From Geodermatophilus obscurus (GTDB lineage Bacteria > Actinomycetota > Actinomycetes > Mycobacteriales > Geodermatophilaceae), in the NCBI RefSeq assembly GCF_900115395.1, contig NZ_FOWE01000009.1:124001-188000 (forward strand): DNA of 64,000 nt, given 5' to 3'. Of the stretch, positions 15,838 to 54,200 are shown piece after piece. The notes beneath the pieces were generated by a model, which worked only from the letters and a program-made list of their open reading frames with translations, was not told the origin of the DNA and did no database searches. The translations under genes were made by a program, and so were the position numbers. Numbering within the stretch: position 1 is the first letter of the stretch; every line of letters begins with the position of its first letter.

Positions 15838-16905
15838 GTGGCCGCCAGTAAGGACGCCGTCGTCCTGACCGTCGACGGGCGCGAGGTGCGGGTCTCCAAC
15901 CCGGAGAAGCCGTACTTCGCCGAGCGCGGCATCCGCAAGATCGACGTCGTCGAGTACTTCGTCGCCGTGGGTGAGGGCATCCTGTTCGCCCTGCGGGACC
16001 GGCCGACGACGCTGGAGCGCTGGCCGGGCGGGGTGTTCGAGGGCGCCCGGCTGTCGACCCGCATGGACAACACCGGCGACGCCTTCTACCAGAAGCGGGT
16101 GCCCAAGAACGCGCCCGACTGGGTGCCCACGGCGCACATCAGCTTCCCGAGCGGGCGGACCGCCGACGAGATCGCGCCGGACTCGGTCGCCGTCGTGGCG
16201 TGGTGCGCCAACCTCGGGACGCTGACCTTCCACCCGTGGCCGGTGAGCAGGGGCGACGTCGAGCAGCCCGACCAGATCCGCATCGACCTCGACCCGCAGC
16301 CGGGCACCGACTTCTCCGACGCCGTGTGGGTGGCCCCCCACGTGCGCGAGCTGCTGCACGAGCTCGGCATGGAGGGCTGGCCGAAGACCTCCGGCGGGCG
16401 CGGCGTGCACGTCTACGTGCCGATCCAGCCGCGCTGGACCTTCCCCGAGGTGCGCCGGGCGGTGATCGCCTTCGGCCGCGAGCTGGAACGCCGCATCCCC
16501 GACCGCGTGACGATGTCGTGGTGGAAGGAGGAGCGCGGCGAGAAGATCTTCATCGACTACAACCAGATGGCCCGGGACCGCACGATCGCCAGCGCCTACT
16601 CGATCCGGCCCAAGCCGCACGCGCCGGTGTCGGCGCCCCTGGACTGGGACGAGCTGCCCGGCGTCTCGCCGTTCGACTTCGACGTGCTGACCATGCCCGC
16701 GCGGTTCCGGGAGGTGGGTGACAAGCACGCCGGGATGGCCGGGCACGCCTTCGGCATCGAGCCGCTGCTGGAGCTGGCCGAGCGCCAGGCGAGGGACCAG
16801 GGCCTCGGCGATCTGCCCTATCCGCCCGACTACCCGAAGATGCCGGGAGAGCCCATGCGGGTCCAACCGAGCAGGGCCAGGCGTCCTACCAGCGCATACG
16901 AGTGA
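15838..16905 (+). CDS. ligD: LigD-type NHEJ polymerase/primase domain protein
   Basis: 355 aa, a stand-alone LigD polymerase domain (AEP primase fold) that fills gaps at double-strand breaks. Key motifs are DQIRIDLDPQPGT (metal-binding Asp pair), SGGRGVHVYVP, and DYNQMARDRTIASAYSIRP. The GTG at 15838 follows GGGAGC. The C-terminus PKMPGEPMRVQPSRARR is the normal family ending; the DNA coding for it recurs four more times across the next 36 kb. A decayed integrase remnant directly follows the stop. This gene's 3' end is therefore proposed as the insertion target of the island. Confidence 0.93.
   Translation: MAASKDAVVLTVDGREVRVSNPEKPYFAERGIRKIDVVEYFVAVGEGILFALRDRPTTLERWPGGVFEGARLSTRMDNTGDAFYQKRVPKNAPDWVPTAHISFPSGRTADEIAPDSVAVVAWCANLGTLTFHPWPVSRGDVEQPDQIRIDLDPQPGTDFSDAVWVAPHVRELLHELGMEGWPKTSGGRGVHVYVPIQPRWTFPEVRRAVIAFGRELERRIPDRVTMSWWKEERGEKIFIDYNQMARDRTIASAYSIRPKPHAPVSAPLDWDELPGVSPFDFDVLTMPARFREVGDKHAGMAGHAFGIEPLLELAERQARDQGLGDLPYPPDYPKMPGEPMRVQPSRARRPTSAYE
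16833..16905 (+). repeat. ligD-tail repeat, copy A (inside ligD; proposed attachment site)
   Basis: The last 73 bases of ligD. The same stretch recurs at 18710 (B), 47065 (C), 50110 (D) and 52476 (E), all on the plus strand. Every copy keeps the coding frame, and A, B, C and E end in an in-frame stop. Confidence 0.75.
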
Positions 16906-17110
16906 TCCGGCGCTCGACGCAAGCAAGGCACAACGCTCACTCGACGGACAACCCCCGTCCTCCGGTGTCGCTTGCGTACCCCTCCAGTCGCTCTTCGGAC
17001 GCGACAGCAGCCGTTGCCAAGGCGCCGCCCGCCATCGTGCTCTATAGCTGAAGGGTGCGGTATGACAGCCGCTGGCTGACCGACCGCGGCCGCAGCGCGG
17101 TGCTCGACGA
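16906..17110 (+). pseudogene. Element arm A and decayed integrase start
   Basis: Bases 16906-16985 match 47138-47220 closely (shared CGACGGACAACCCCCGTCCT) and contain an inverted repeat, ACGCAAGC (16917-16924) with GCTTGCGT (16970-16977). From about 17018 the sequence resembles the integrase start found at 50238 (CAAGGCGCCG ... CCGCTGGCTGA) but with stops and small deletions. Confidence 0.5.
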
Positions 17111-17122
17111 GGGCCGTGCTAT

Positions 17123-17293
17123 TCACCGACCGAGCAGCCAGCGGCGGAACTCCTCTTCCAGGTGGCCCATCTCGGCGTCGTACTCAGGCGTGTGGACGAG
17201 GCCGCGGCGGCGCTCTGCGTCCCACGCCTGAAGCGGGCGGAACTGCTTGGGCAGCTTGCGGACGCGGCTGTACGGAGTGTCGGAGTCGGTCAT
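17123..17293 (-). CDS. Small conserved-looking protein, 56 aa
   Basis: ATG at 17293, stop at 17123. The product begins MTDSDTPYSRVRKLPKQFRP and ends EEEFRRWLLGR. It is charged, with no signal or membrane segment. It looks like the small single-domain hypotheticals common in soil actinobacteria, but I do not recognise a function. It is the only plausible gene between integrase remnant A and the toxin-antitoxin pair. Confidence 0.5.
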   Translation of the reverse strand: MTDSDTPYSRVRKLPKQFRPLQAWDAERRRGLVHTPEYDAEMGHLEEEFRRWLLGR

Positions 17294-17877
17294 CCGCGCA
17301 TCGTGCTCTCGAAGCGGAGGCTGCGGAAGAGACGCCTGCGCCAGCGTCCCGGCAGGGAAACGACCTGCGACCTTCGCCGAACCGCTCACTGAGCGCCCCC
17401 TGCGGACGTGACCGGCGTGGTCCTTGAGGAGCGCACCGGCCCCGGCCGCCGAGGGTGCAACTGAGGTCCCAATCCGGGTTCTCCGTCCGGACGGCGGCGG
17501 CTCGGGATCCCCGGCTGCTCGACATCCACGGTGGCGCCTCCTGCGACCATCGATCCGAGGACGAACCCAACAGGGGCATCGGCCCCTTGTGGCCGACGGC
17601 GACGGAGTTCGGCATCCGCCCGACGGGACGATCGGCTCCGCGGCGCTGCGTTGCCTCAGCCCAGGAGGTCGACGCGCCTGGTGGGTCGTTCCCTGCGGCT
17701 GGCTGTTCACGGCGTCGGCGGCTGTGGGTCAGGGAGGATCCGGTTCTCGGGTGCGCAACTGAGGCCGTTGTCGGGGAGCATGTCGCGCTCCTCCCGCCAC
17801 AGGCTGGGACGGGTCCTGACCCGCCCGGCGCGCCTCGGCGAACCGAGCGAGCCGTGCTTGACCGCAGCTGGCCGGCT
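17294..17877. other. Gene-poor stretch
   Basis: No convincing gene. The open frames lack ribosome sites and recognisable sequence. The words GGGTGCAACTGAGG (about 17452) and GGGTGCGCAACTGAGG (about 17748) recur, suggesting an old local duplication. Confidence 0.5.
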
Positions 17878-17893
17878 GACCACAATTGTGGTC
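17878..17893. promoter_or_regulatory. Palindromic operator of the toxin-antitoxin operon
   Basis: GACCACAATTGTGGTC, a perfect 16-bp palindrome ending one base before the antitoxin ATG. It fits autorepression by a YefM/Phd-type antitoxin and is unusually AT-rich at its centre. The second copy of the locus has lost the symmetry (49668-49683). Confidence 0.75.
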
Positions 17894-18169
17894 ATGACGA
17901 CGCAGTCGCTGGCGGCGGTCAAGGCGCACTTCAGCCAGGTGATCGACGAGGTCGCCAGCACGCACGAACGCGTCACCGTCACCAAGAACGGCAACCCGGT
18001 CGCGGTCATCCTCGCCGTCGAGGACTACGAGTCCCTGGTCGAGACCCTGGAGATCCTCTCCGATCCTCGAGCACGCTCGGACATCAGACAGGCCGAGGAG
18101 GCGATGGCCGCCGGTGAGGTCCACGGCGAGGCCGAGGTGCGGGCCGCACTCGCGGCCCGCCGGCGGTGA
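17894..18169 (+). CDS. YefM/Phd-family antitoxin, copy 1
   Basis: 91 aa. N-terminal DNA-binding part has the family pattern AAVKAHFSQVIDEVASTHER then VTVTKNGNPVAVILAVEDYE. The C-terminal part (LSDPRARSDIRQAEEAM) should wrap the toxin. Starts at the ATG following the palindrome; its stop overlaps the toxin GTG by 4 bases. An identical protein is encoded at 49684-49959, with only one base different in the coding region (the third base of the second codon). Confidence 0.9.
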   Translation: MTTQSLAAVKAHFSQVIDEVASTHERVTVTKNGNPVAVILAVEDYESLVETLEILSDPRARSDIRQAEEAMAAGEVHGEAEVRAALAARRR

Positions 18170-18441
18170 CCGGCCCTCCTCGGTTCACCGTCGTCCTCTC
18201 GGCAGCGGCCAAGCGTGCCATCGAGCGCGACCTCCCCGAGCCGGTGGCTGTCGCGGTCGTCGACTTCCTCTTCGGGCCGCTGGCTGCGGACCCCTACCGC
18301 GTCGGGAAGCCACTGCGCTTCGATCTCGAGGGCTACTGGTCCGCGCGACGGGGCCGGTACCGCGTCATCTACTCGATCCACGACGACGAGGTCCTCGTCA
18401 GGGTCGTGCGCATCTCGCACCGCGCCGACGTCTACGGCTGA
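18166..18441 (+). CDS. RelE/ParE-family toxin
   Basis: 91 aa, full length. The pattern is typical: TVVLSAAAKRAIERDLPEP at the start, then PYRVGKPLRFDLEGYWSARR, and the core RGRYRVIYSIHDDEVLVRVV ending ISHRADVYG. It would cleave mRNA on the ribosome and be held in check by the preceding antitoxin. GTG start coupled to the antitoxin stop. The twin at 49956 is cut after about 22 codons. Confidence 0.9.
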   Translation: MTGPPRFTVVLSAAAKRAIERDLPEPVAVAVVDFLFGPLAADPYRVGKPLRFDLEGYWSARRGRYRVIYSIHDDEVLVRVVRISHRADVYG

Positions 18442-18621: not shown

Positions 18622-18836
18622 GCGCGGGAACTCGCCCGACAACCACCCGATCCCGCTCACGGGCGACCTGGCCTCTTGTCGCGCTGGACAGCGCTTCCGG
18701 GTTTCGCTCCCCGAAGATGCCGGGCGAGCCGATGCGCGTCCAGCCCAGCCGCGCCAGGCGTCCTACCAGCGAGGATGCCTGATCCGGCCGTCGGCGGAGG
18801 GGTAGCACAGCGCTGTTCCCCGGATGACCTGCCGCC
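18622..18836 (+). repeat. ligD-tail repeat, copy B with left arm and int leader
   Basis: Left arm (18622-18709) begins GCGCGGGAACTCGCCCGAC and carries CAGCGCTTCCGGGTTTCGCT. The ligD-like core follows at 18710-18782; it still reads KMPGEPMRVQPSRARRPTS and ends in an in-frame stop. The right arm includes the palindrome ACAGCGCTGT. Nearly identical to copy D at 50022. Confidence 0.8.
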
Positions 18837-18959
18837 GTGGCGATCCGGCTGGAGGACCTGCTGGCGTCCCTCCGGCGGCACCTGCGAGCCGCCGTCAAGG
18901 CGCCGCGGACCATCGAGCTCTACAGCCGGCCGGTGCGGTACTCCAGCCGAAGGTCCTGA
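18837..18959 (+). pseudogene. Tyrosine integrase, N-terminal remnant B
   Basis: GTG-started frame MAIRLEDLLASLRRHLRAAV...KAPRTIELYS that stops after 40 codons. It matches the first part of the longer fragment at 50238, i.e. the core-binding (SAM-like) domain of a tyrosine recombinase. Confidence 0.7.
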
Positions 18960-19514: not shown

Positions 19515-21596
19515 GTGTCCGTCCTGACCCGGTCCACGGCTCGTGGCGTCCCCGGAGCCGGCCGGAGCCGGCGACGGACGGAGCTCGACGGCCTGCGCGC
19601 CATCGCGGTGACCCTGGTCGTGGCCTATCACGTCTCCAGCGGGAGGGTCTCCGGCGGCGTCGACGTCTTCCTGGTCCTCAGCGGCTTCTTCCTCGTCCAG
19701 GTGGTGAGCGGGCACATCCGCCGCGAGGGCCGTGTGCCGGTCCTGCGGGCGGTCACGCGGAGCCTGTCCCGGTTGCTGCCCACCGCCTTGCTCGTCCTCC
19801 TGGCGACCGTGGTCGCGAGCGTGTGGGTGGTTCCGCACAGCCGGTGGCGCGAGCTGGCGCTGCACCTGCTGTCCTCGGTGACCTTCACCGAGAACGCACG
19901 GCTGGTGGACGAGGCGGTCGACTACAGCGCGAGCAACGCCGCCGCCAGCCCCATGCAGCAGTTCTGGTCCCTGTCGATCCAGGTCCAGGTGCTGGTACTG
20001 GCACCGGTCGCCGTCGCGGCGGGAGCCGCCGTCCTCCGGTGGGCCGGCTGGGCCCACTTCGCCCGGCAGGCGGTCGTGGGTTCCGTGGCGCTGGTGACCG
20101 CGGCGTCGTTCGCCTGGTCGGTCGTGGCCACCGCCACCAACCAGCAGCAGGCGTACTTCTCCTCCCTGCCCCGGCTGTGGGAGCTGGGTGCCGGTGCCCT
20201 GGTGGCCCTGCTGCTGCGCGACGTCCGCCCGGGACCGCGCTCAGCAGCGGCGCTCGGCTGGAGCGGTGTGGTCGCGCTCGTCGCCTGCGGCGCCGTCCTC
20301 GACGGAGCTCACGAGTTCCCCGGTTGGCAGGCGGGGTGGCCGGTGCTGTGCGCCGTGGCCGTGCTCGTCGCCGCCGACCACGGAGGCCGGCTGGGGGTCC
20401 ACCGGGTCCTCGGTGCTGCCCCGATGCGCTGGCTGGGCGCCCGCTCCTACCCCCTCTATCTGTGGCACTGGCCCGTGCTGGTCCTCTACCTGGTCCACAC
20501 GCAGCGGGAGACCCCCTCGCCTCGGGGTGCGGCCGCCGTCGTCGTCCTGTCCCTCGGCCTCGCCGCGGTGACCCACCGGCTGGTCGAGCGGCCGGCCGGG
20601 GACCGGCTCCGGGCCCGTCCCCCGGTCGGCGCCCTGGCCCTCGTCGTGGTCGCGGCCCTGCCGCTGGCCGCGACGGGCGGGCTCGTGCTGACGTGGCTGG
20701 ACCGGGAGGCCGCCCGCGTCGCGACGGCAGCAGACGATCCCGCATACCCGGGGGCGGCCGCGCTGGGCAGCCCCGTGGTCCACACCGGCGGCGCCGATGG
20801 CGTGGAGCCGCTCCCGTCGATGTCGGTGATCCGCGACGACTGGCCGCGGCTCCCCGGGGCGACGTGCCGGAGCGAGGACGAGCTCGGGTGGCAGCCCACG
20901 GGGACGGAGGTCTGCGTCCTCGGGTCCGACGACCGCCCGCGCCGCGTCGTCGTCGTCGGTGACTCACACGTCGCCCACTGGCTACCTCCGCTGGCCGCGA
21001 TGGCCGAGACGCACTCGTGGCAGGTCGTGGGGATGGTGCGCGGCGGCTGCAACCTGTCGACGGAGTCCGAGTTCATCCAGGAGGGCTGGCCGGAGTACGA
21101 GGAGTGCGCGACCTGGCGTGCCCACCTGGTCGAGCGAATCGTGTCCCTGGAACCGGATCTCGTCGTCTCGCTCGGGACGCGGACCGGGTTCGGGCCGGGC
21201 GAGGAGTCCGTCCCGCCCGGGTTCCTGGCGGCCTGGGCTCAGTTGTCGGATGCCGGCCTGCGCGTGATCGCCCTGCGGGACAGCCCGCGGCACGTGCACG
21301 ACGTCCCCGACTGCACGGCGCGGTGGGGTGACACGTCGGCGGCCTGCGAGGTGCCGCGCTCGTCGGTCTACACCGAGCCACTCCTCGCGGAGGTCGAGCC
21401 GTCGTTGCCCCCGCGGGTGAGCATCCTGGACACCAGTCCCTACTTCTGCACGGACACCACGTGCCCCGCGTTGATCGGCAACGTGCGGGTCTACATGGAC
21501 AACGCGCACGTCACCGCCACCTACATGAGCACGGTGCGGGCGGTGGTGGAGGACGACCTCCTCGCCCTCGCGGACTGCGCGTTGGCGCCGTGCTGA
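19515..21596 (+). CDS. OafA/YrhL-type acyltransferase with SGNH domain
   Basis: 693 aa integral membrane O-acyltransferase. The acyltransferase-3 domain (about 20-370) starts with RRTELDGLRAIAVTLVVAYH and has GGVDVFLVLSGFFLV, with about ten membrane helices and WLGARSYPLYLWHWPVL. The extracytoplasmic SGNH domain (about 450-690) has the block I RRVVVVGDSHVAHW and the catalytic Asp-His block DNAHVTATYM. Such proteins acetylate cell-surface polysaccharides or peptidoglycan. The GTG at 19515 was chosen because the N-terminal basic head leads directly into the family motif. The gene stands alone in the island. Confidence 0.9.
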   Translation: MSVLTRSTARGVPGAGRSRRRTELDGLRAIAVTLVVAYHVSSGRVSGGVDVFLVLSGFFLVQVVSGHIRREGRVPVLRAVTRSLSRLLPTALLVLLATVVASVWVVPHSRWRELALHLLSSVTFTENARLVDEAVDYSASNAAASPMQQFWSLSIQVQVLVLAPVAVAAGAAVLRWAGWAHFARQAVVGSVALVTAASFAWSVVATATNQQQAYFSSLPRLWELGAGALVALLLRDVRPGPRSAAALGWSGVVALVACGAVLDGAHEFPGWQAGWPVLCAVAVLVAADHGGRLGVHRVLGAAPMRWLGARSYPLYLWHWPVLVLYLVHTQRETPSPRGAAAVVVLSLGLAAVTHRLVERPAGDRLRARPPVGALALVVVAALPLAATGGLVLTWLDREAARVATAADDPAYPGAAALGSPVVHTGGADGVEPLPSMSVIRDDWPRLPGATCRSEDELGWQPTGTEVCVLGSDDRPRRVVVVGDSHVAHWLPPLAAMAETHSWQVVGMVRGGCNLSTESEFIQEGWPEYEECATWRAHLVERIVSLEPDLVVSLGTRTGFGPGEESVPPGFLAAWAQLSDAGLRVIALRDSPRHVHDVPDCTARWGDTSAACEVPRSSVYTEPLLAEVEPSLPPRVSILDTSPYFCTDTTCPALIGNVRVYMDNAHVTATYMSTVRAVVEDDLLALADCALAPC

Positions 21597-21610
21597 CCGG
21601 CTCCCGTCGC

Positions 21611-22966
21611 TCAGCCGGCCGGTCCCGCCGAGCCGGCCGGGTACTCCTGCAGCGGCACCTCGCCGGCGGCCCATGCCGCCAGGACCGGTTCGACGATCCG
21701 CCAGCTCTCCTCCGCCTCGACGTCACTGATGGACAACGTGGTGTCGCCCTCGAGCAGCTCGCGCAGCAGCAGTCCGTAGGCGGGCAGGTCGTGCGGCGCC
21801 ATCCGCGCCGTGAGCACCTGCCGTTCTAGGTCGAACGGGTCGCCCGCTCCGTTGAGATTGACCTCCAGCGCGATGGCGTCGGGGGACAGCGAGAGCCGCA
21901 GCACGTCGGGCTCGGGCGCGGCGCCGAGGAACGGCAGGTGCGGCACCGGTCGGAAGCGGACGACGATCTCCTGCCGGCCGGCGCCCAGCGCCTTGCCGGT
22001 GCGCAACCGGAACGGGACGCCCGCCCACCGCCAGTTCTCCACCGTCAGCGTGAGCTCGGCGTAGGTCTCGGTCCCGCGGGCGGGGTCGACGCCGTCCTCG
22101 TCGACGTAGTCGGGCAGCGACCGGCCGTCCACCGTCCCCGCCGTGTACCGCCCCCGCACGCTGCCGGTCCGCACGTCGGCCGGCGGCCGGACAGCCCGCA
22201 GCACGTCGGCCTTGCGGGCGGGCAGCGAGGAGGCGTCCACGGCCAGCGGGGGCTCCATCGCGACGATCGCCAGCAGCTGCAGCAGGTGGTTCTGCAGCAT
22301 GTCCCTCAGGGCGCCGGCCCGGTCGTAGTAGCCGGCCCGCCCCTCCAGCCCGAGGGTCTCGTCGGCCACGATGTCCACCCGCTCGACGTGCGTGGCGTTC
22401 CAGATCGGCTCGAAGACCCGGTTGGCGAACCGCAGGCCGAGGACGTTGAGCACGGTCTGCTTGGCGAGGAAGTGGTCGACCCGGAACACCGCCTCCTCCG
22501 GCAGCGACCGGTGCAGCAGCTCGTTGAGCGCCCGGGCGTCGGCCCGGTCGGTGCCGAAGGGCTTCTCGACGACCACGCGCGCGCCCTCGGGCAGCCCGAC
22601 CTCGGCCAGCGCGGTCAGGGTGGGCCGGAACAGGGTGTGCGGCAGGGCCAGGTAGACCACCGGCTCGCCGTCCACCCCGGCCAGCGCGGCACGCAGGTCG
22701 GTGGCGTCGGTGACGTCCCCCTGCAGGTAGCGCAGGCGGCCGAGGAGGCGGTCGTGCGAGTCCGCCGGCAGGTCGCCGGCGTGCGCGACCAGCCGGTCGC
22801 GCGCCCAGCCGCGGTACGCGTCGTCGTCCCACTCCTCGCGGGCCACGGCGAGCAGCTGGCTGCCCTCGGGGAGGACGCCGCTGTCGTACAGCCGGGCCAG
22901 CGAGGGCAGCAGCAACCGGCCGGTGAGGTCCCCGGTACCGCCCAGGACGACGAACGAGCGGGTCAC
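21611..22966 (-). CDS. zwf: Glucose-6-phosphate dehydrogenase, divergent
   Basis: 451 aa. NADP-binding GGTGDLTGRLLLPSL is at the N-terminus; VVVEKPFGTD and the active-site block RVDHFLAKQTVLN follow. The usual family block is RIDHYLGKE, so residues around the catalytic His-Asp are partly changed (FLAKQ). It is slightly shorter than housekeeping Zwf (about 500 aa). The GTG start at 22966 overlaps the stop of the GH15 gene by 4 bases. Coupling with a glucose-releasing hydrolase suggests glucose is fed into the pentose phosphate route for NADPH. A second zwf probably exists elsewhere. Confidence 0.85.
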   Translation of the reverse strand: MTRSFVVLGGTGDLTGRLLLPSLARLYDSGVLPEGSQLLAVAREEWDDDAYRGWARDRLVAHAGDLPADSHDRLLGRLRYLQGDVTDATDLRAALAGVDGEPVVYLALPHTLFRPTLTALAEVGLPEGARVVVEKPFGTDRADARALNELLHRSLPEEAVFRVDHFLAKQTVLNVLGLRFANRVFEPIWNATHVERVDIVADETLGLEGRAGYYDRAGALRDMLQNHLLQLLAIVAMEPPLAVDASSLPARKADVLRAVRPPADVRTGSVRGRYTAGTVDGRSLPDYVDEDGVDPARGTETYAELTLTVENWRWAGVPFRLRTGKALGAGRQEIVVRFRPVPHLPFLGAAPEPDVLRLSLSPDAIALEVNLNGAGDPFDLERQVLTARMAPHDLPAYGLLLRELLEGDTTLSISDVEAEESWRIVEPVLAAWAAGEVPLQEYPAGSAGPAG

Positions 22967-24822
22967 CGGGCGTCCCGCTGCTCGGCCTCGGCGCGGGCCA
23001 GCGTGACCCCGCTGGCGATCAGTCCCAGGTGGCTGAACGCCTGCGGGAAGTTGCCGAGGAACGCGCCGCTGCCCGGGTCGATCTCCTCGGACAGCAGGCC
23101 CAGGTGGTTGGTCCGGCCGCAGAGCGAGTCGAAGAGGTCGTGGGCCTCGTCCAGGCGTCCCTGACCGGTCAGGTTGTCGACGAGCCAGAAGCTGCAGAGG
23201 AGGAACGCGCCCTCCCCACCGGGCAGCCCGTCGTCGGACTCCTCGTGCCGGTAGCGGTAGAGCAGGCCGTCCCCGGCGTCGAGGTGCCGGCGCACCGCCT
23301 CGGTGGTCGCCACCATCCGCGGGTCGTCGACGGCCACCACGCCGCGCAGCGGGAGGGCGAGCAGAGAGGCGTCCAGCCCGCCGCGGCCACCCCCGTCGTC
23401 GTCGGCGAGCTGCTCGGTGAACGTCCCCCGGTCCGGGTCCCACGCCCGCTCGAGCACCGCGGTGCGGATGCGGTCGAGCTCCGTGCGCCACCGGTCGCGC
23501 GGGTGGTCCAGGCCCCGCGCCTCGGCGATCCGCAGCGCCCGCTCGACCGCGACGGCGCACATGGCGACCGAGTAGGTGAACGGCCGCCCCGAGCTGCGCA
23601 CCTCCCAGATCCCGTGGTCGGGCGTCGTCCAGTTCTCGATCGCGGCCTCGGTCAGGTCGCACAGCACGCGCCACAGGTGGTCGTCGACCGGCCCGCCGGA
23701 GCCGACCCACCCCCAGGCGACGTCGAGCAGCTCGCCGTAGACGTCGTGCTGGGTCTGCCCGGCCGCGCCGTTGCCCCAGCGCACCGGCCCCGAGCCGCGA
23801 TATCCCGACAGCACGGCGTCCTCCGTCTCGGGCGGCGGCTGCCCGCCGTCGAGGGCGTACATCAGGTGCGGCCGCCCGTCCCGCTCGACGTTGGTCAGGG
23901 TCCACGCCAGGAACGCACTCGACTCGGCGGGCATGCCGACCCTGCGCAGCGCATAGGTCGAGAAGGCGGCGTCGCGCACCCAGGTGTAGCGGTAGTCCCA
24001 GTTGCGCACGCCGCCGATCTCCTCGGGCAGCGACGACGTCGCCGCCGCCATGATCGCTCCGCTCGGCACGTGGTCGAGCGCCTTGAGCGCGAGCGCCGAG
24101 CGCAGCACCAGGCCGCGCTGGGGGCCCTCGTACTCCAGCTTCCCCGCCCAGGCCCGCCATGCCTGGGCGGTCTGGTGCACGAGCCGGGCGGGGTCGACGC
24201 GGTCCAGCAGGCGGGTGCTGCCCGACCAGTGCAGCGAGGCGGTCAGCCGCTCACCGGCGCGCAGCCGCGCGCGCGCCCCGATCGACCCGTCGGGGGCGAC
24301 GTCGAGGTCGTGGGAACACCAGAGCACCACGACCAGGTCGGGACGAGCGGGCCAGTGGATGCGCCAGGCGCCGCTCTCGCGGGTGACGCGGACGTCGTCG
24401 CGCGGAGCCAGCCGCACCTCCAGCTCGGCCGAGCCGGAGACGACCCGCGCCACCCGCAGCAACTCGCTGCGGCCGGCCGGGACGAGCTCCTCGAGGTCGG
24501 CCCCCGACCGCAGCGTCATGCAGTCGGTGAGCTCCACGACTCCGTCGAGCCCCTCGAGCACGGTGACCAGCACGTTGCTCTCGTCCAGGTAGCGCTGACC
24601 ACCCGCGCGCAGGCCGCGTGGCGCCAGGGTGAAGGTCCCGCCGCGGTCGGCGTCGAGCAGCCCGGCCAGGAACGGCGGGCTGTCGAACTCGGGCAGGCAC
24701 AGCCACGGGATGGACCCGTCCCGGCCCACCAGCGCGCAGGTGGCGCCGTCACCGACGAGCCCGTGGTCCTCGATGGGCAGGAAGCCGTCGACGCGGGTCA
24801 ACGGGTGGGTGGTTCCGGGCAT
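22963..24822 (-). CDS. GH15 glucoamylase/trehalase-like hydrolase
   Basis: 619 aa. The N-terminal beta domain begins DGFLPIEDHGLVGDGATCALVGRDG; the alpha/alpha-barrel has EIGGVRNWDYRYTWVRDAAF and the C-terminal catalytic block LLSEEIDPGSGAFLGNFPQAF. This architecture is shared by actinobacterial glucoamylase-like proteins, some of which are GH15 trehalases, so the substrate may be trehalose or maltodextrins. The ATG at 24822 has GAGG 6 bases before; the ATG directly upstream (24825) is equally in frame. Coupled to zwf. Confidence 0.87.
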   Translation of the reverse strand: MPGTTHPLTRVDGFLPIEDHGLVGDGATCALVGRDGSIPWLCLPEFDSPPFLAGLLDADRGGTFTLAPRGLRAGGQRYLDESNVLVTVLEGLDGVVELTDCMTLRSGADLEELVPAGRSELLRVARVVSGSAELEVRLAPRDDVRVTRESGAWRIHWPARPDLVVVLWCSHDLDVAPDGSIGARARLRAGERLTASLHWSGSTRLLDRVDPARLVHQTAQAWRAWAGKLEYEGPQRGLVLRSALALKALDHVPSGAIMAAATSSLPEEIGGVRNWDYRYTWVRDAAFSTYALRRVGMPAESSAFLAWTLTNVERDGRPHLMYALDGGQPPPETEDAVLSGYRGSGPVRWGNGAAGQTQHDVYGELLDVAWGWVGSGGPVDDHLWRVLCDLTEAAIENWTTPDHGIWEVRSSGRPFTYSVAMCAVAVERALRIAEARGLDHPRDRWRTELDRIRTAVLERAWDPDRGTFTEQLADDDGGGRGGLDASLLALPLRGVVAVDDPRMVATTEAVRRHLDAGDGLLYRYRHEESDDGLPGGEGAFLLCSFWLVDNLTGQGRLDEAHDLFDSLCGRTNHLGLLSEEIDPGSGAFLGNFPQAFSHLGLIASGVTLARAEAEQRDAR

Positions 24823-24877
24823 CATGGTCCTCGGCTCGGGAGCGGACGGAGACGACGGGTACGACGCAGCGCTACCC

Positions 24878-24908
24878 GGCGCGGCCGGCGTCATCCGCCG
24901 GCCGCGCC
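24878..24908 (-). terminator. Terminator hairpin
   Basis: Perfect 13-bp inverted repeat (24878-24890 with 24896-24908), loop TCATC, just after the small membrane protein gene and before the GH15 gene. Confidence 0.7.
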
Positions 24909-24957
24909 GCCGGCTGCTCCCGCGTCCCGGGTCGCCGGCCGGCCCGCGCCGGCCCGG

Positions 24958-25134
24958 TCACCGACCGGTCCGGTGGACGGACCTGCCGGGTGCCTCCACC
25001 GCACGCCGCACGACCACCCCGACCACGGTGAGCCCCAGCACGGTCAGGACGACCGCCCAGAGCGCGAACTCCAGCAGCGCCCCCAGGACGCCGCCGGCGA
25101 GCGCCAGCAGCAGGACGAGCACGATCCACAGCAC
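24958..25134 (-). CDS. Small membrane protein, 58 aa
   Basis: GTG at 25134 preceded by GAGGAGG at 5 bases. The product is two hydrophobic helices (LWIVLVLLLALAGGVLGALL and LWAVVLTVLGLTVVGVVV) with a basic tail RRAVEAPGRSVHRTGR. It matches the type of tiny hydrophobic proteins found beside stress genes in actinobacteria; function unknown. Followed by a terminator. Confidence 0.65.
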   Translation of the reverse strand: MLWIVLVLLLALAGGVLGALLEFALWAVVLTVLGLTVVGVVVRRAVEAPGRSVHRTGR

Positions 25135-25262
25135 AACGACCTCCTCGTTGCCATCGGTCCACCTCCTGCCCGGTCCCGTCCGCACCGCACCGGTGCCGCC
25201 GGCCACAGCTGCGGATCCGGTCGTTGCCGGGTCCCGGCACGCCGGTGGGGACGCGCGGCCGG

Positions 25263-25901
25263 TCAGGCCCGGCCGTCGGGCGGCGCGGCCAGCAGCACCG
25301 GGCACCGTGCCCTCGCGGTGAGCGTCGACGCCGCGCTGCCGAGCACCGTCCGGGACAGTCCGCGTCCCCGCCGTCCCACGACGAGGAGGTCCACGCCCTC
25401 GGTCTCGGCCAGCTCGAGGAGAGCGGCGGCCGGCTGACCGGCCAGGATCTGCGTCTCCACGACCGCCCGGCCCTGCGGCAACCGGCGGCGGTACCGGGAC
25501 AGCAGGTCGCGGGCGTGCGCGCGCTCGTCGTCGTGCGCCCCGTCGGCGGCGTCGGCGCTGACCACGGTCGCCAGCACGAGCCGCCCGGCGGCCGGCGCCA
25601 CCAGCCGGGCGGCAGCCCGGACGGCCTCCTCCGACTCCGGCGACCCGTCGACCCCGATGAGGACGGCCGGCCGCCGTCCGGGGCCGGCCCCGCCGACGAC
25701 CGGCTCCACCCGCCGGTCCAGCCGCCGGGACCCCCGGGCCGCGCGCTCGACGGCGATCGGCAGGACCAGCGGGCCGAGGACGCCCCCGAGGAGCAGCCAG
25801 CTCCCCTCGCGGTGACCACGCCGGTAGAGGAGGACGACCACGGCGCCCAGTCCGATCGCCACCCAGGGCACCAGCAGCAGCGCCCAGTACGGGGAGCTCA
25901 C
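25263..25901 (-). CDS. Membrane-anchored universal stress protein
   Basis: 212 aa. The GTG at 25901 is preceded by GGAGGG. Residues about 5-55 form two membrane helices (YWALLLVPWVAIGLGAVVVL and a second), then the UspA domain starts RPAVLIGVDGSPESEEAVRA and ends with VDLLVVGRRGRGLSRTVLGS, the ATP-binding G-2X-G-9X-G(S/T) type motif. Most UspA proteins are soluble, so the anchor is unusual. Neighbours are also small membrane and stress genes. Confidence 0.82.
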   Translation of the reverse strand: MSSPYWALLLVPWVAIGLGAVVVLLYRRGHREGSWLLLGGVLGPLVLPIAVERAARGSRRLDRRVEPVVGGAGPGRRPAVLIGVDGSPESEEAVRAAARLVAPAAGRLVLATVVSADAADGAHDDERAHARDLLSRYRRRLPQGRAVVETQILAGQPAAALLELAETEGVDLLVVGRRGRGLSRTVLGSAASTLTARARCPVLLAAPPDGRA

Positions 25902-25960
25902 GTCCGCCCTCCCCGCCCCGTCGCGACCGCGGCACCGGGGGCGTGGGAGCACCGATCCGG

Positions 25961-26248: not shown

Positions 26249-26288
26249 GGGTCCTCCAGGTGTCGTGGACGTCGTCGTATCGATGGGC

Positions 26289-26324: not shown

Positions 26325-26372
26325 GGCGCCGGCCGGCGTCGGGTCGGTTCCGTGGCCGACCTGCCCGTGCGG

Positions 26373-44228: not shown

Positions 44229-44289
44229 GGACCGCCGGTCCGATCCAGCGCCATCTGCACCGGCGGACGCCACGAGGCGTCGCTGCAGA

Positions 44290-44505
44290 AGGGCACGCGA
44301 CCGTCCCGCCAGCGTGATGTCGAGCCACGGTGTCCTGCTCGAGGTGGTGTCCGAGATCCTCGGCCGCTCGTCGATCGCCATCACCGGCGACGTCTGGGGC
44401 ACGTCGCACCCGACGTCTCGCGCGAGGCGATGGACGTCCTCGGTGCCGCCTTCGGCGAGTGGGGGTGGCCTCATGGTGGTCAAGAAGGTGGTCAACGCCC
44501 TCGGG
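44290..44505 (+). pseudogene. Tyrosine integrase, C-terminal remnant
   Basis: ASVMSSHGVLLEVVSEILGR followed by SSIAITGDVWG is the region around the catalytic His/Tyr of a tyrosine recombinase. The catalytic tyrosine is mutated or shifted (DVWGTSHPTS for the usual DVYGH). A frameshift then joins a second frame reading REAMDVLGAAFGEW. No intact recombinase remains. Confidence 0.75.
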
Positions 44506-44559
44506 AAGCAGTCAGGGGCTGCCCGACTCCCGTCGAAACGCCCCCTGACCTGCGGTGTC

Positions 44560-44602
44560 CTACTGTCGGGCTGACCGGATCCGGACCTGCAACCCCTTGA
44601 CC
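44560..44602 (-). repeat. tRNA 3'-end-like fragment (possible attachment remnant)
   Basis: On the minus strand GGGGTTGCAGGTCCGGATCC resembles a T-arm (GCAGG-TTCGAAT-CCTGC) with changes, followed by an acceptor-like TCAGCCCGACA. It directly follows the integrase remnant, as expected for an attachment site. No anticodon arm is present. Confidence 0.35.
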
Positions 44603-44617
44603 CCACAGAATGGCGGT

Positions 44618-45334
44618 ATGGCACCGGAGGCCCACTATGTCGCGCTCGGCGACTCCATCTCGATCGACGACTATTCGGGTGGCCCCGGCCGGGGCGGGGC
44701 GAGCCTCCTGCACCGCAACCGCGACGACGACTTCGCCGAGTGGCGCGGCCGCGATCTCCTCACCGTCGACCCCGACACGACGTTCTCGCTGCTGGCCACG
44801 GACGGCGCGACGACGCGGAGCCTGCTCGAAGTCCAGCTGCCACGGCTGGCCGCGCTCACGCGCCGGCCGACGATCGTCACCGTCACCATCGGTGGGAACG
44901 ACCTGCTCGGCGCGTTCGGGGACACCTCCGCGGCGCGCAAGGTGATCCTGCGGGTGCGCAACGCCGTGGCCAGCGCCCTGCCCGTGATCGACGAGCTGCT
45001 CGCGCCGGGCGGGCGGATCGTCCTCGGCACCGTCTACGACCCCAGCGACGGCACCGGGGACGCCGCCCGACTCGGGCTCCCGCCCTGGGACGACGCCGTC
45101 GCGGTTATCGCCGAGCTCAACGCGTCGCTCCGCAGCGTCGCCGGAGAGCACGGCGCGACGGTTGCCGAGATCGCCGAGCGCTTCGCCGGCCACGGGCTCC
45201 TCGCGGGGGACCCGACGCGGCCGGAGGCGCGGCCGGCCGAGCGGGCGCTGTGGTTCTGCCACCTGATCGAGCCGAATGCGTGGGGCGCCGGCGGCGTCCG
45301 TGCGGCCTTCTGGGACGCCATCCACGACAACTGA
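44618..45334 (+). CDS. SGNH/GDSL hydrolase-like protein
   Basis: 238 aa, no signal peptide. Block I YVALGDSISIDDYSGG has the nucleophile Ser. Block III VTIGGNDLLGAFGD has the Gly-Asn. The final block is CHLIEPNAWGAGG, where the canonical Asp-x-x-His is replaced by a His-Leu-Ile-Glu order, so the catalytic acid-base pair should be checked. The ATG at 44618 was chosen since upstream codons run into the tRNA-like fragment. Confidence 0.8.
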   Translation: MAPEAHYVALGDSISIDDYSGGPGRGGASLLHRNRDDDFAEWRGRDLLTVDPDTTFSLLATDGATTRSLLEVQLPRLAALTRRPTIVTVTIGGNDLLGAFGDTSAARKVILRVRNAVASALPVIDELLAPGGRIVLGTVYDPSDGTGDAARLGLPPWDDAVAVIAELNASLRSVAGEHGATVAEIAERFAGHGLLAGDPTRPEARPAERALWFCHLIEPNAWGAGGVRAAFWDAIHDN

Positions 45335-46977: not shown

Positions 46978-47225
46978 TGGGAACTCGCCCGGTAACCTCC
47001 CCATTTCGCTCACCCGCGCGACGTGGCCTTTTGCCGCTCTGAACAGCGCTTTCGGGTTTCGCTCCCCGAAGATGCCGGGAGAGCCGATGCGCGTCCAGCC
47101 CAGCCGCGCCAGGCGGTCTGCCAGTGCAGACGAGTGATCCGGCGCTCGACGCAAGCAAAGCGCAGGGCTCACTCGACGGACAACCCCCGTCCTCCGGTGC
47201 TGCTCGCGTACTCCCGTCGCTCCGG
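46978..47225 (+). repeat. ligD-tail repeat, copy C
   Basis: Left arm with GGGAACTCGCCCGG and CAGCGCTTTCGGGTTTCGCT. The ligD-like core at 47065-47137 reads KMPGEPMRVQPSRARR and then SASADE before an in-frame stop. The right arm matches copy A (GGCGCTCGACGCAAGCAA, CGACGGACAACCCCCGTCCT), not copies B and D. The preceding 46766-46977 has no gene. Confidence 0.75.
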
Positions 47226-49683: not shown

Positions 49684-49959
49684 ATGACCACGCAGTCGCT
49701 GGCGGCGGTCAAGGCGCACTTCAGCCAGGTGATCGACGAGGTCGCCAGCACGCACGAACGCGTCACCGTCACCAAGAACGGCAACCCGGTCGCGGTCATC
49801 CTCGCCGTCGAGGACTACGAGTCCCTGGTCGAGACCCTGGAGATCCTCTCCGATCCTCGAGCACGCTCGGACATCAGACAGGCCGAGGAGGCGATGGCCG
49901 CCGGTGAGGTCCACGGCGAGGCCGAGGTGCGGGCCGCACTCGCGGCCCGCCGGCGGTGA
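49684..49959 (+). CDS. YefM/Phd-family antitoxin, copy 2 (orphan)
   Basis: 91 aa, identical in sequence to the product of 17894-18169; the two DNAs differ by one base within the gene. The toxin that follows is truncated, so this is an orphan antitoxin. It could still neutralise the toxin made at 18166. The near identity contrasts with the decayed surroundings and points to a recent duplication or gene conversion. Confidence 0.88.
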   Translation: MTTQSLAAVKAHFSQVIDEVASTHERVTVTKNGNPVAVILAVEDYESLVETLEILSDPRARSDIRQAEEAMAAGEVHGEAEVRAALAARRR

Positions 49960-50021
49960 CCGGCCCTCCTCGACACACCGTCGTCCTCTCGGCAGCGGCC
50001 AAGCGGGCCACCGAGCGTGAC
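49956..50021 (+). pseudogene. RelE/ParE-family toxin remnant
   Basis: The first 22 codons match the toxin at 18166 (TVVLSAAAKRATERD). The sequence then jumps straight to GCGCGGGAACTCG, which in the first locus is 390 bases further on. The catalytic half is deleted. Confidence 0.85.
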
Positions 50022-50237
50022 GCGCGGGAACTCGCCCGACAACCACCCGATCCCGCTCACGGGCGACCTGGCCTCTTGTCGCGCTGGACAGCGCTTCCGG
50101 GTTTCGCTCCCCGAAGATGCCGGGCGAGCCGATGCGCGTCCAGCCCAGCCGCGCCAGACGTCCTACCAGCGAGGATGCCTCATCCGGCCGTCGGCGGAGG
50201 GGTAGCACAGCGCTGTTTCCCCGGATGACCTGCCGCC
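50022..50237 (+). repeat. ligD-tail repeat, copy D with left arm and int leader
   Basis: Nearly identical to copy B. Core at 50110-50182; the stop codon of B (TGA) is TCA here, so the frame reads on. The palindrome ACAGCGCTGT precedes the integrase start. Confidence 0.8.
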
Positions 50238-50582
50238 GTGGCGATCCGGCTCGAGGACCTGCTCGCGTCCTCCCGGCGGCATCTGCGGGCCGCCACCAAG
50301 GCGCCGCGGACGATCGAGTTCTACAGCCAGTCCGTCGTCTCCTTCAGCCGCTGGCTGAGCGACCGGAACCGGCCGGCGACGCTGGACGAGCTGACCCGGC
50401 ACGCGATCTCTGCTTGGCCGGCCGAGCTCGCCGAGACGAACGAACCCTCCACCGTCGGCACCCGGCTGCGCGGGATGCGCCGGTCCTGCCGCTGGCTGGT
50501 CACTGAAGGAGAACTGGAGAAGGCCCCCACCGACGGCGTCGAGATCCCCAGCCCGCCCGACAAGCCGGTGCTGCCTGGGTGG
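50238..50582 (+). pseudogene. Tyrosine integrase, N-terminal remnant D (longest)
   Basis: 115 codons of the core-binding domain: MAIRLEDLLASSRRHLRAAT, KAPRTIEFYSQSVVSFSRWL, LDELTRHAISAWPAELAE, TVGTRLRGMRRSCRWLVTEG and EIPSPPDKPVLPGW. This is the SAM-like N-terminal arm of XerD/phage-type integrases. The catalytic domain is missing; the frame then enters DNA belonging to the next gene's 3' side. Confidence 0.8.
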
Positions 50583-52314: not shown

Positions 52315-52388
52315 GTCGGGGTGGCCGGCTCGACGGCGGCGCGAGACTCAGGACCCGGGAGGCACGGACGGGCACTCGCGCAGATCCG

Positions 52389-52555
52389 GGGGTGCGAACT
52401 CACCTGATGACCCACCCACTCGCGCTCGCGCCGCCTGCGGTTTCGCCGCTCTGGACAGCGCTTCCGGGTTCCGCTCCCGGAGATGCCGGGCGCGATGCGG
52501 GTGCAGCCCGATCGCGCCAGGAAGCCGGCCGGCGCAGACGAGTAGTCCGGCCTTC
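52389..52555 (+). repeat. ligD-tail repeat, copy E
   Basis: More diverged than A-D. Left arm with GCGAACTCACCTGATGACC and CAGCGCTTCCGGGTTCCGCT; core 52476-52545 reads EMPGAMRVQPDRARKPAGAD and ends in an in-frame stop. One codon is missing relative to ligD. No integrase start follows. Confidence 0.65.
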
Positions 52556-52567
52556 GATGGATGGTGC

Positions 52568-53731
52568 TCAGGAACGATCCGGCGGGTGCAGCAGCGCCCG
52601 ACCCGTGGCGGGGTCGAAGACGTGCGCGCGCGTGGCGTCGACGGTGATCCGCACCGCGTCCCCGGAGCGGATCACCGCCCGTGGGGGGAAGAAGGAGTGC
52701 AGGGTGCCGCCGGAGGGACCGCCTCCGAGCAGCCCGCCGCCCGGGTCGTCCGGCGCTGCCTCCACCTGGACCGCGACCACGTTCTGCCGTCCGGTGTACT
52801 CGACGTGGCTCACCACCGCGTCCAGCGCGACGGCGTCCGGGTCACGCCCGGCCTCGGCGGGGTGCACGTCCTCGGCACGCAGGCCGAGGACCACCTCACG
52901 GCCGACGTGGCCGAGCAGCGGCGGTGGCACCGCCTGCCACAGGGGCAGGGTCCGGGCGCCCACCCGGAACCCGGCCTGTCCACCGGCGGACACCAGCCGG
53001 GCGGGCAGCAGCCCGATCTGCGGGGCGCCGATGAACTCGGCGACGAACAGGTCCACCGGCCGCTCGTACAACTCCCTGGGCCTGCCCACCTGCACGATGC
53101 GGCCCTCGTGCAGCAGCGCGACCCGATCGGCGATCGCCAGACCCTCGGCCGGATCGTGCGTGACGTAGAACGTCGGGACGCCGAGGGACCGGGCGACCTC
53201 GACGATCTGACGCCGCACCTCGACGCGCTGCACGGCGTCGAGGTCGCCGAGCGGCTCGTCGAGCAGGAGGACGTCCGGGACCTGCACGAGCGCCCGGCCG
53301 ATGCCGACCAGGCCTCGCTCGCCCCCGGACAGCTGGCCCGGTCGACGGCCCAGCAGGCGGCTGAGCCGCAACTGCCGAGCCCGGCCGCTGACCCGCTCCT
53401 GCACCTCTGCTTCCGGCCGGTGCTGCACACGCAGGCTCCACCCGAGGTTGTGCGCCACGTCGAGGAACGGGAGCAGGGCGGACGACTGGAACACCATGGC
53501 CACGTGTCGCTCACCGGACGGCAGCCTGGTGACCCGGCGGCCCCTGATCAGCACCTCACCGGAGCTGACCCCGTCGAGCCCCGCGACGACCCGCAGCAGC
53601 GTCGTCTTGCCGCTGCCCGACGAGCCCAGCACCACGATCAGTTCGCCGTCGGCCGCCAGCAGCGTCACGTCGCGCAGCACCGTCGCGCCGCCGCGGACCA
53701 CGGTCACGCCGTCCACGCCCGTATCCGTCAT
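52568..53731 (-). CDS. MalK/MsiK-type sugar ABC transporter ATPase
   Basis: 387 aa from the ATG at 53731. Walker A GSSGSGKT (36-43), Q-loop MVFQSSALLPFLDVAHNLGW, signature LSGGERGLVGIGRALVQVPD, Walker B LLLDEPLGDLD and switch FYVTHDPAEGLAIADRV. A C-terminal TOBE-type regulatory region (from about 240) is present. The signature residue usually Q is G here (GGERGLV), a mild deviation. No permease adjoins it; the importer at 56042-59179 lacks an ATPase and may use it. Confidence 0.88.
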   Translation of the reverse strand: MTDTGVDGVTVVRGGATVLRDVTLLAADGELIVVLGSSGSGKTTLLRVVAGLDGVSSGEVLIRGRRVTRLPSGERHVAMVFQSSALLPFLDVAHNLGWSLRVQHRPEAEVQERVSGRARQLRLSRLLGRRPGQLSGGERGLVGIGRALVQVPDVLLLDEPLGDLDAVQRVEVRRQIVEVARSLGVPTFYVTHDPAEGLAIADRVALLHEGRIVQVGRPRELYERPVDLFVAEFIGAPQIGLLPARLVSAGGQAGFRVGARTLPLWQAVPPPLLGHVGREVVLGLRAEDVHPAEAGRDPDAVALDAVVSHVEYTGRQNVVAVQVEAAPDDPGGGLLGGGPSGGTLHSFFPPRAVIRSGDAVRITVDATRAHVFDPATGRALLHPPDRS

Positions 53732-53985
53732 CGGTCCCGCCCGCCGCCTCGTCCCGCCAGATCGTCCCGCCCGGTCTCCCCGCCCGATCGCCCCGTGGGA
53801 GGGAGTGTGCACCGAGGACGGGGTGGCGAGCTGCGCGGCAGCAGCACCCGTGGTGCGGAGCGGCCGGCTGATCGGCATGGTCCGCCTCAGGTCGTGCGCG
53901 GGCCCGCAGCACCGGCCCCCGCGGGTCGGGGGCTCGGCACGTCCCGGGCGCCGACGCAGCGACGCTGCCCAACGACCGCTCCGGG
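53732..53985. other. Upstream region of the ATPase gene
   Basis: No gene recognised; the ATPase frame is open further upstream but lacks conserved sequence. Confidence 0.45.
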
Positions 53986-54200
53986 TCGGGGACCGCCCGA
54001 TGACCCGCCCCTGCTCGCGCGCGACCCGCGGTCCTGCTGCTCCGAACAGCGCTCCCGGATCCCGCTCGCCCTCCCGGCCTCAGCTCCGGGCCGCCGGGAA
54101 GGCGCGGGGACGATCGAGCCGGAGAGCCGGCCGGTGCGGCACTCCAGCCATCGGCTGACCCTCCGTGACCGGCCGACGCCCCTGGATGAGCTCACCCACC
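53986..54200 (+). repeat. Degenerate repeat F, left arm plus integrase remnant
   Basis: Left arm with CCGCCCGATGACCCGCCC and GAACAGCGCTCCCGGATCCC, like copies B-E, but the ligD tail is deleted. From 54098 it matches the integrase start region (GGACGATCGAG ... AGCCGGCCGGTGCGG ... GGATGAGCTCACC). Right boundary of the repeat-marked island. Confidence 0.55.

Follow-up and report, generated by a model that had tools for sequence, protein, structure and literature searches.

The 3' end of ligD as a probable attachment site of tyrosine integrases and their cargo islands in the Geodermatophilaceae

In the Geodermatophilaceae, the 3' end of the end-joining gene ligD appears to be the attachment site (attB) of one clade of tyrosine integrases, and the additional copies of the ligD tail found in Geodermatophilus obscurus appear to be the junctions of a decayed tandem array of islands. 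We give this reading a probability of about 0.94. It is drawn from sequence comparison, which bears on the target, the structure of the junctions, the short and filled sites, the attP with a ligD tail on viral contigs, the positions of the arm motifs, and the separation from tRNA-linked integrases. A preliminary description of the same DNA had proposed integrative elements that target the ligD 3' end; the integrases of related genomes, the positions of the extra copies, and the collinearity of attR with empty sites now support this proposal.

Copies of the ligD 3' end in the window

The window is the whole stretch of 64,000 nucleotides that was analysed (contig NZ_FOWE01000009.1, positions 124,001 to 188,000). 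Its features are given below with their strands. Copy A is ligD itself, and copies B, C, D, E, and F lie at 18710, 47065, 50110, 52476, and about 54 kb, respectively.

15838..16905 (+): ligD polymerase-domain gene (355 aa), the target gene; Pfam LigD_Prim-Pol, E 3e-85
16830..16894 (+): putative attachment core within the ligD 3' end, copy A; repeat family from self-BLAST and alignment
17010..17111 (+): decayed integrase scar behind ligD; tblastn, residues 18-51, 65%
17888..18441 (+): antitoxin (Phd/YefM) and toxin (RelE-type) on the left side of junction B; Pfam PF02604 and a RelE-like PHROG match
18622..18706 (+): left arm of junction B, with arm motif CTCGCCCGACAACC; copy alignment and arm-motif scan
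18707..18771 (+): att core copy B; self-BLAST to 16830-16894, 87.7%, E 3e-14
18837..18950 (+): integrase N-terminal remnant behind B; tblastn, residues 1-38, 84%
19515..45334 (.): cargo between B and C; gene calls and Pfam (nine proteins singly, all as a set)
46979..47061 (+): left arm of junction C; self-BLAST and arm-motif scan
47062..47222 (+): att core copy C and a right flank resembling the flank behind ligD; 86% over 164 bp to 16830-16993, E 4e-43
49684..50021 (+): second antitoxin gene and truncated toxin; self-BLAST and tblastn
50022..50106 (+): left arm of junction D; self-BLAST and arm-motif scan
50107..50171 (+): att core copy D, without an in-frame stop; self-BLAST, 86%, E 1e-12, and translation
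50238..50570 (+): integrase remnant behind D; tblastn, residues 1-111, 89% identical
52319..52521 (+): copy E, att core with its left arm; 76% to 18551-18758
54001..54149 (+): scar F, an integrase piece (54069-54149) with a weakly arm-like stretch ahead; self-BLAST, arm-like part by eye
61490..63100 (.): far-side anchor, the csp gene call (61573-61776) and its neighbours; conserved, and near ligD in short-interval genomes

The tail copies recur in a single orientation, as had been noticed before: all are on the + strand in the self-BLAST, E being linked only through the B and D blocks. Copy E has no match to the ligD tail itself in the window self-BLAST and is matched instead by the block around D (50080-50157 versus 52447-52520, 85%, E 1e-13). 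Translation confirmed an in-frame stop at the end of A, B, C, and E and none in D, and in the copy alignment B, C, D, and E are all preceded by a shared left arm that is not ligD. When the whole genome was searched, the ligD-tail query gave four matches, ligD itself among them, and a 306-base att query gave six, five of them in the window and one, of 22 bp, on contig C3.

The preliminary description had B and D leading into the start of an integrase, and had seen a more decayed integrase at A and F. Both observations hold: the remnants behind B and D begin at residue 1, the scar behind ligD is 65% identical, and the piece at F is 80% identical to 18868-18948 in the self-BLAST. In the self-BLAST, 17857-18231 plus 18622-18927 match 49647-50021 plus 50022-50328 at 96-97% identity, which makes B and D two copies of a single junction that includes the Phd/YefM-RelE-type pair. 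Clusters of this type were found in 8 of the 24 genomes compared, and one RelE-like toxin match in PHROGs, whose matching member is not named, occurs among 39 window proteins. The cargo between B and C encodes an acyltransferase with an SGNH domain, a glucose-6-phosphate dehydrogenase, a GH15 enzyme, and an Mrp-type Na+/H+ antiporter, together with a PucR-type regulator, a histidine kinase, a response regulator, and a GDSL lipase-like protein. As to the idea of serial accretion "pushing older ends downstream", the tandem array stands, but the order of insertion is less certain, because the longest integrase remnant lies at D and not beside ligD.

Intact integrases behind ligD in related genomes

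In four genomes, intact integrases of 307 amino acids start 49-55 bp past the ligD stop; the ligD-linked integrase has a Phage_integrase domain (Pfam), which places a tyrosine integrase beside the att site. A conserved block, TAGCAC...CTCGCCCGATAACCT, followed by the start codon, lies ahead of int. The preliminary description had suggested looking for integrases next to ligD in relatives, and integrases that start with MAIRLEDLLASFRRHLR or a similar sequence do lie there: among the 14 integrase places found at E ≤ 1e-120 in 112 genomes of the family, 10 are directly behind ligD (in one of these, ligD is cut at the contig start), three are behind an isolated tail, and one is in neither position. 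A duplicated ligD tail is also seen wherever an intact integrase follows a whole ligD: of these nine genomes, five (G007, G023, G074, G083, and G115) have the second copy on that contig and four (G001, G005, G061, and G114) have it on a different one.

The ligD-csp interval

The gene on the far side of the array was named csp by eye from its sequence, and in the window genome it lies 44.6 kb from ligD. Among the 94 genomes with ligD, 65 have it paired with csp on one contig, in 22 csp is unpaired or lies on a different contig (G020 lacks a csp match, and the matches in G125 and G126 are csp fragments on other contigs), and seven were not tabulated. The gap is 0.55-4.7 kb in 30 of the 65 genomes and 6-193 kb in the other 35, with an arbitrary cut for short intervals at 5 kb and with intervals and att positions compiled by hand from search tables. 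Short, apparently empty ligD sites (<5 kb), which the preliminary description had suggested looking for, are therefore present in 30/65 genomes, and some align collinearly with attR. In a comparison of five attR with 12 short-interval or reference loci, the attR copies continue collinearly from the core into the flank that lies behind ligD at empty sites. One-block alignments connect G070 (465-3174) with G073 (1072-3718), and G035 (2237-3090) and G083 (13876-14739) with G088; most other attR/empty-site pairs align in several pieces. Relatives thus offer empty sites, and filled loci have a direct repeat at their far end, as is expected of an integrative element that uses a gene 3' end.

Extra att copies were counted at E ≤ 1e-6, and the count leaves aside those found only by the longer 306-base query (e.g., in G025, G026, and G036). 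Across the 65 genomes, 21 of the 25 extra copies fall between ligD and csp, with 0.35 expected by length. Copies scattered away from ligD, the pattern that would have spoken against the original proposal, are uncommon: there are four, three of them far from ligD in a single genome (G023) and the fourth in G069, a 71% match that is mostly to the left-arm part. In G000, an integrase relic that has neither arm nor tail is located on a separate contig.

Viral contigs and other families

The ligD tail is used as a target more widely than had been proposed, on viral contigs and in other families too. Relatives of the integrase sit behind ligD in seven other families, so that ligD-linked members occur in eight in all. 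In a sample of the order, ligD is upstream in 4/4 matches outside the family. In a sample of the class (25 places), five follow ligD, a tRNA gene lies ≤330 bp upstream of 15, four have neither, and the remaining one is the relic of the window genome. In six viral contigs, a ligD tail lies in frame shortly before int (80 loci were kept of 175 relatives), and four of the six have a stop within five codons ahead of int. When the viral collection was scanned for an exact ligD-core pattern, four contigs were returned, all among these six. The attachment site is uninterrupted on the viral contigs, and those with a ligD tail carry phage genes (terminase large subunit; tail fibre, tape measure, and primase families). 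In the phage and plasmid collections, all records are below 60% identity to the query integrase: the best-listed phage has 37% (39% with a viral-contig integrase as the query) and the top-listed plasmid record 32%. A viral attP had no DNA match in the phage collection.

In a tree of 61 rows, including 24 ligD-linked and 25 tRNA-linked integrases (row L307 was labelled ligD by hand from a decayed tail), a 100/100 branch parts the ligD-linked from the tRNA-linked members. Three rows labelled "other" lie inside the ligD clade, and a strict one-clade test is rejected (p 2e-9); in L300 a ligD tail lies slightly beyond the 330-bp window, the sequence of L310 starts at the int gene, and L313 has no readable tail. 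The best match of the left arm motif lies at -83 to -88 from the core in 13/13 non-ligD loci, and that of the right arm motif near +100 in 12/13, where some scores (9-10 of 14) are at the level of chance (at least 10 in 241 of 2000 random stretches) and owe their support to position.

Island cargo, LigD tails, and alternative explanations

The islands might be decayed prophages of ligD-integrating phages, which later lost their phage genes and gained cargo by ordinary recombination. Viral contigs with a matching attP design and related integrases do exist, but we consider this origin unlikely. Three islands, from the window, G007, and G023, were scanned with PHROGs (E ≤ 1e-10). The scans, which took in 47 of the 57 gene calls of one island, 34 of 39 of another, and 39 of 43 of another, found integrase, metabolic, transporter, transposase, toxin-type, and unnamed families, but none named as terminase, capsid, portal, or tail. 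The ten intact or junction integrases of the Geodermatophilaceae form their own subclade in the tree. The cargo of the three islands is mostly metabolic. The PHROGs scans also found no named phage primase or packaging family of the kind expected of a PICI; a TOTE-type primase protein of G023 lay outside these scans and was found by Pfam. There is no FtsK/TraB, relaxase, or Rep among the 25/71, 25/49, and 25/41 Pfam families listed for the three islands, and no conjugation or replication gene among twenty proteins scanned singly, with large islands such as that of 193 kb being outside the annotation.

It is very unlikely that the system is retained for swapping the C-terminal residues of LigD, and thereby altering the function or an interaction of the repair polymerase, whether as regulated gene integrity or as tail diversification. 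A TSE[DN]-type tail occurs in 8/9 genomes with an intact integrase behind ligD versus 0/13 short-interval genomes, in a comparison whose pattern was chosen post hoc, which read 13 of the 30 short-interval genomes and left out long-interval genomes without an intact integrase. Against this, ligD runs to its stop in 48/48 ends read, among 95 ligD places one contains an in-frame TAG (G089) and two are partial, the broader tail type is not significantly linked to interval length (p 0.12, all intervals), and the variable residues lie beyond the matched Pfam domain. Together with the six in-frame viral tails, the 48 complete ends suggest that the target gene is kept whole by an end supplied from attP. 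Unusual synonymous conservation of the core, as from repeated replacement, was also considered and rejected, since conservation at synonymous sites is not elevated at the ligD core.

We regard it as highly improbable that the ligD-csp gap is a mere permissive site that collects unrelated insertions, with the ligD tails incidental to them. No extra att copy was detected in 22/35 long intervals at the search depth used, so that not every insertion there can be attributed to the ligD-site integrase, and IS110-type transposases are present in one island; however, extra copies occur in 0/30 short versus 13/35 long intervals, and a specific integrase lies at the junction. Segmental duplication or homologous recombination around ligD would fit the near-identity of the B and D blocks, as a ready-made junction duplicated within the array, but is extremely improbable as the source of the tail copies, because the left arm takes the place of the ligD body at the core in B-E, attR runs on into the empty-site flank, the arm motifs keep nearly constant positions across viral contigs and islands, and the cognate integrase adjoins the junctions.

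Proposed mechanism of integration

For the preferred reading, integration at ligD, we propose the following scheme. The attP would hold the last ligD codons (K-M-P-G-E-P-x-R-V-Q-P-S...) followed by the element's own end and stop codon. Left and right arms would flank this core, each with an arm-type motif (about CTCGCCCGATAACC) that the integrase presumably binds, and the integrase gene would begin directly after the right arm. The attP would recombine with ligD, probably through catalysis by this integrase at a putative exact crossover, to generate attL, in which an intact ligD with an element-supplied tail is followed by int about 50 bp downstream, and attR, which consists of the left arm, the displaced ligD tail, and the old chromosomal flank; excision may reverse these steps. 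Because every leftover core would be reusable, elements would pile up in tandem between ligD and csp and then decay in place, and we infer that such repeated insertion caused the array. Phage contigs carry integrases of this clade, and so do, in the Geodermatophilaceae, islands of mostly metabolic cargo.

It is an unlikely further reading that LigD was picked as a dock because this ties the mobility of the elements to non-homologous end joining (NHEJ). In the integrated state, int follows ligD at a distance of about 50 bp and with the same orientation, so that transcription of ligD upon DNA breaks or desiccation would enter int; the conserved block ahead of int would make the arm site a candidate int promoter as well, which Int could block; and the elements would excise or spread when the end-joining programme of the host is on.

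Comparison with known systems

Tycheposons may be a comparable cargo-type element. The tRNA-linked integrases of the same class share the layout of target, spacer, and integrase (tRNA gene, roughly 100 bp, int) and differ in being 39-52% identical to the query integrase and in lying on the opposite side of the 100/100 branch. PAISt of Streptomyces turgidiscabies resembles the ligD islands in its actinobacterial host, its tyrosine recombinase, its insertion into the 3' end of a protein-coding gene, the copies of this gene end at its ends and inside, the integrase remnants in relatives, and its modular array; it differs in its bacA target with an 8-bp palindrome, in carrying its integrase at the island's far end, and in its transfer by mating (PMC4057263). 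In the ligD islands, by contrast, the integrase follows the target directly, junctions are numerous, and no transfer genes were seen in the scanned part of three islands. The ssrA islands of Dehalococcoides likewise lie in tandem behind a single gene, carry a copy of its 3' end as the mark of each island, have niche metabolic cargo, are described without conjugation genes, and grow by accretion, whereas they use a serine recombinase, an RNA gene target, and a 20-bp repeat (PMC3146451). For phages and PICIs at genes like icd, fis, and hpt, attP may hold a replacement target end, the integrase clade is coherent with the site, and off-target events and tandems occur; their target genes and hosts are others (PMC10111431), and the ligD islands are without named satellite genes in our scans.

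In the titles and abstracts of the literature searched, we found no report of ligD as an attachment site; in the available portions of two papers, ligD is mentioned only as a gene (PMC12429752, PMC5567305). The ligD islands may be present in an island database that holds 1.75 million islands, 43.4% of them in coding sequences (PMC12424338).

Significance

The ligD 3' end and its cognate integrase clade are a candidate docking system for actinobacteria. As insertion into the ligD tail brings a replacement tail, the spot would be a hotspot that gathers metabolic genes, and ligD-site junctions may serve as a marker for finding islands with catabolic pathways. Viral contigs and cargo islands share one integrase lineage, and because this lineage has ligD-linked members in eight families, on an end-joining gene, it would be directly testable whether break repair and mobile DNA are connected.

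Copies of the ligD end in the window

The preliminary description held that the 3' end of the LigD polymerase gene recurs downstream of ligD, and self-comparison of the window recovered these tail copies at the positions and on the strand proposed: with ligD itself as copy A, they are B (18710), C (47065), D (50110) and E (52476). Copies B, C and D match ligD with E values from 1e-12 to 4e-43, far above chance, and copy E is linked through its matches to B and D. The finer claims also held, as the sequence upstream of the copies is a shared arm and not ligD, an in-frame end is present in A, B, C and E and absent from D, and integrase pieces lie 3' of A, B and D, with another forming scar F (about 54 kb). 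B and D are near-copies of a single junction, including a toxin-antitoxin pair that is also found close behind ligD in several relatives; its second toxin copy is truncated.

17888-18441: Phd/YefM-RelE toxin-antitoxin pair, first copy, adjoining an att junction
49684-50021: Phd/YefM-RelE toxin-antitoxin pair, second copy, adjoining an att junction

Self-comparison of the window also revealed two imperfect palindromes, at 4219-4300 (83%) and 60892-61025 (77%).

Linkage of the integrase to ligD in the Geodermatophilaceae

The host genome assembly has 22 contigs totalling approximately 4.96 Mb. Named loci that carry this integrase come from Geodermatophilus, Blastococcus and Modestobacter, all members of the Geodermatophilaceae, either cultured or metagenome-derived. 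ligD lies directly upstream of the integrase in 12 of 16 such loci (one of these truncated by the contig start), and the remainder have an isolated ligD tail (two loci), a tail 2.6 kb away (L115) or none (one locus). An intact tyrosine integrase of 307 aa begins 49-55 bp past the ligD stop in four genomes. A search of 112 family genomes at E<=1e-120 found 14 places, 10 of them behind ligD, three behind an isolated tail, which we read as internal junctions, and one behind neither. The last is a relic in the window genome itself, beside which no arm or ligD tail was found.

G000:C7:20658-21491 (L155 8665-9492): integrase relic, nearly full (residues 33-307, 88%)

Among more distant integrases examined within the family, 10 of 11 are preceded by tRNA-Met, -Arg or -Val.

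Empty and filled sites

ligD was found in 94 genomes. In 65 of these it shares a contig with the csp block, a conserved far-side anchor (window 61490-63100); in 22 others, csp either lies on another contig or is unpaired, and seven are absent from the table. The ligD-csp gap is shorter than 5 kb in 30 of the 65 genomes (minimum 550 bp) and spans 6-193 kb in the other 35. Extra att copies, counted at E<=1e-6, occur in none of the 30 short gaps, whereas 13 of the 35 long gaps contain them; by length, 0.35 of the 25 extra copies would be expected inside the gap, and 21 are found there. In three genomes (G070, G035 and G083), the attR-type copy and all that follows its core align as a single block with the post-ligD DNA of short-interval genomes, which is what site-specific insertion requires. 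Most other such pairs compared align in several pieces.

Some extra copies in split assemblies are on contigs that contain neither ligD nor csp (e.g., G009, G020 and G091), and G069 has one weak match, chiefly to the left-arm part. G023 carries three att copies with ligD tails distant from ligD (L214 near 3783604; L215 371-374 kb), two of which flank a small unit with a degenerate integrase and a gene call resembling an FAD oxidoreductase.

ligD-linked and tRNA-linked integrases

In the order sample (397 genomes, E<=1e-90), 12 genomes match, and ligD is upstream of the integrase in all four from outside the family. In the class sample (394 genomes, E<=1e-75), 22 genomes match at 25 places: five behind ligD, 15 tRNA-linked (tRNA gene no more than 330 bp upstream, in one case on the opposite strand), four with neither and one the window genome's relic. 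Together, the two samples place a ligD-linked integrase in seven families besides that of the host.

In a tree of 61 integrases, a branch with 100/100 support divides 24 ligD-linked from 25 tRNA-linked rows, with L307 counted as ligD-linked by hand and 12 rows with neither label left out of the count. A strict one-clade test fails because three unlabelled rows fall on the ligD side: L300, in which ligD is slightly further upstream; L310, whose sequence begins at the integrase start; and L313, in which no readable ligD tail was found. The tree is unrooted and gives no order of the ligD and tRNA targets.

Viral contigs

From 175 integrase relatives on viral contigs, 80 loci were kept. In six of them the ligD body is absent and its tail, in frame, lies just upstream of the integrase. 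Searching the viral collection independently with the exact ligD core pattern returned four contigs, all belonging to these six. We read a seventh locus, L307, as carrying a decayed tail. In L306, the site has a tail-fibre-type gene on its left and the integrase and a primase-type gene on its right; in L307, a tape-measure gene lies to the left and a primase/helicase gene to the right. The site is thus uninterrupted in both, matching the arrangement of a genome that has not integrated. From five contigs, namely L307 and four of the six, 30 proteins matched 39 PHROG families, and the 25 families listed include terminase large subunit, tape measure, tail and primase.

Design of the attachment site

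In all 13 non-ligD loci, the best match to a 14-base motif, CTCGCCCGATAACC, lies 83-88 bp to the left of the core (10-13 of 14 bases). On the right side it lies near +100 in 12 of these 13 (9-14 bases) and at +103 in nine attL loci (10-14 bases), whose ligD side scores 8-10. When 2000 stretches of 170 bases were taken at random from the window, a score of at least 10 occurred in 241 and a score of 13 in 19. Of 18 genome attL or junction loci, 16 have GATAAC-like bases at a right-hand position that is constant to within one base, the exceptions being L393 (offset by 12 bases) and L403 (without a match). A conserved block, TAGCAC...CTCGCCCGATAACCT, stands immediately 5' of the integrase start codon in the right arms of L121-L129 and in viral loci L306-L314.

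We infer that the CTCGCCCGATAACC motifs are arm-type binding sites. On our own reading, the right-hand motif may overlap a possible -10 element of the integrase gene, and the TAGCAC...CTCGCCCGATAACCT block could be arm motif and putative promoter at once.

Cargo

Three islands were scanned: those of the window, G007 and G023.

Window, between B and C: acyltransferase/SGNH, glucose-6-phosphate dehydrogenase, GH15 and Mrp-type antiporter genes; also a PucR-type regulator, a kinase with a response regulator, and a GDSL lipase-like gene
G007 island: catabolism of phenylacetate, other aromatics and amines
G023 island: catechol/benzoate genes, two IS110-type transposases and a toxin-like gene
G023 island, far end beside attR (L098 7958-10372): 804-aa defence-type TOTE conflict-system primase and helicase protein

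PHROGs scans of most gene calls in these islands found no named structural phage gene, and no conjugation genes were among the 25 Pfam families listed per island. A 661-aa predicted protein of the G023 island (L087 9464-11449) has no Pfam match at 1e-5. When parts of the intervals of 24 genomes were compared, the commonest recurring genes besides ligD were the integrase, seen in 11 genomes, and the toxin-antitoxin pair, seen in eight, followed by a response-regulator-like protein (six) and csp-side genes (four to five).

Place among known systems

The ligD islands have the same layout as PAISt at bacA (PMC4057263), the Dehalococcoides ssrA islands (PMC3146451), and phages and satellites with a replacement gene end (PMC10111431). 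As far as the literature searched shows, three things are new: the use of ligD as an integration site, a class-wide integrase lineage for it, and the presence of this lineage on viral contigs and metabolic islands alike.
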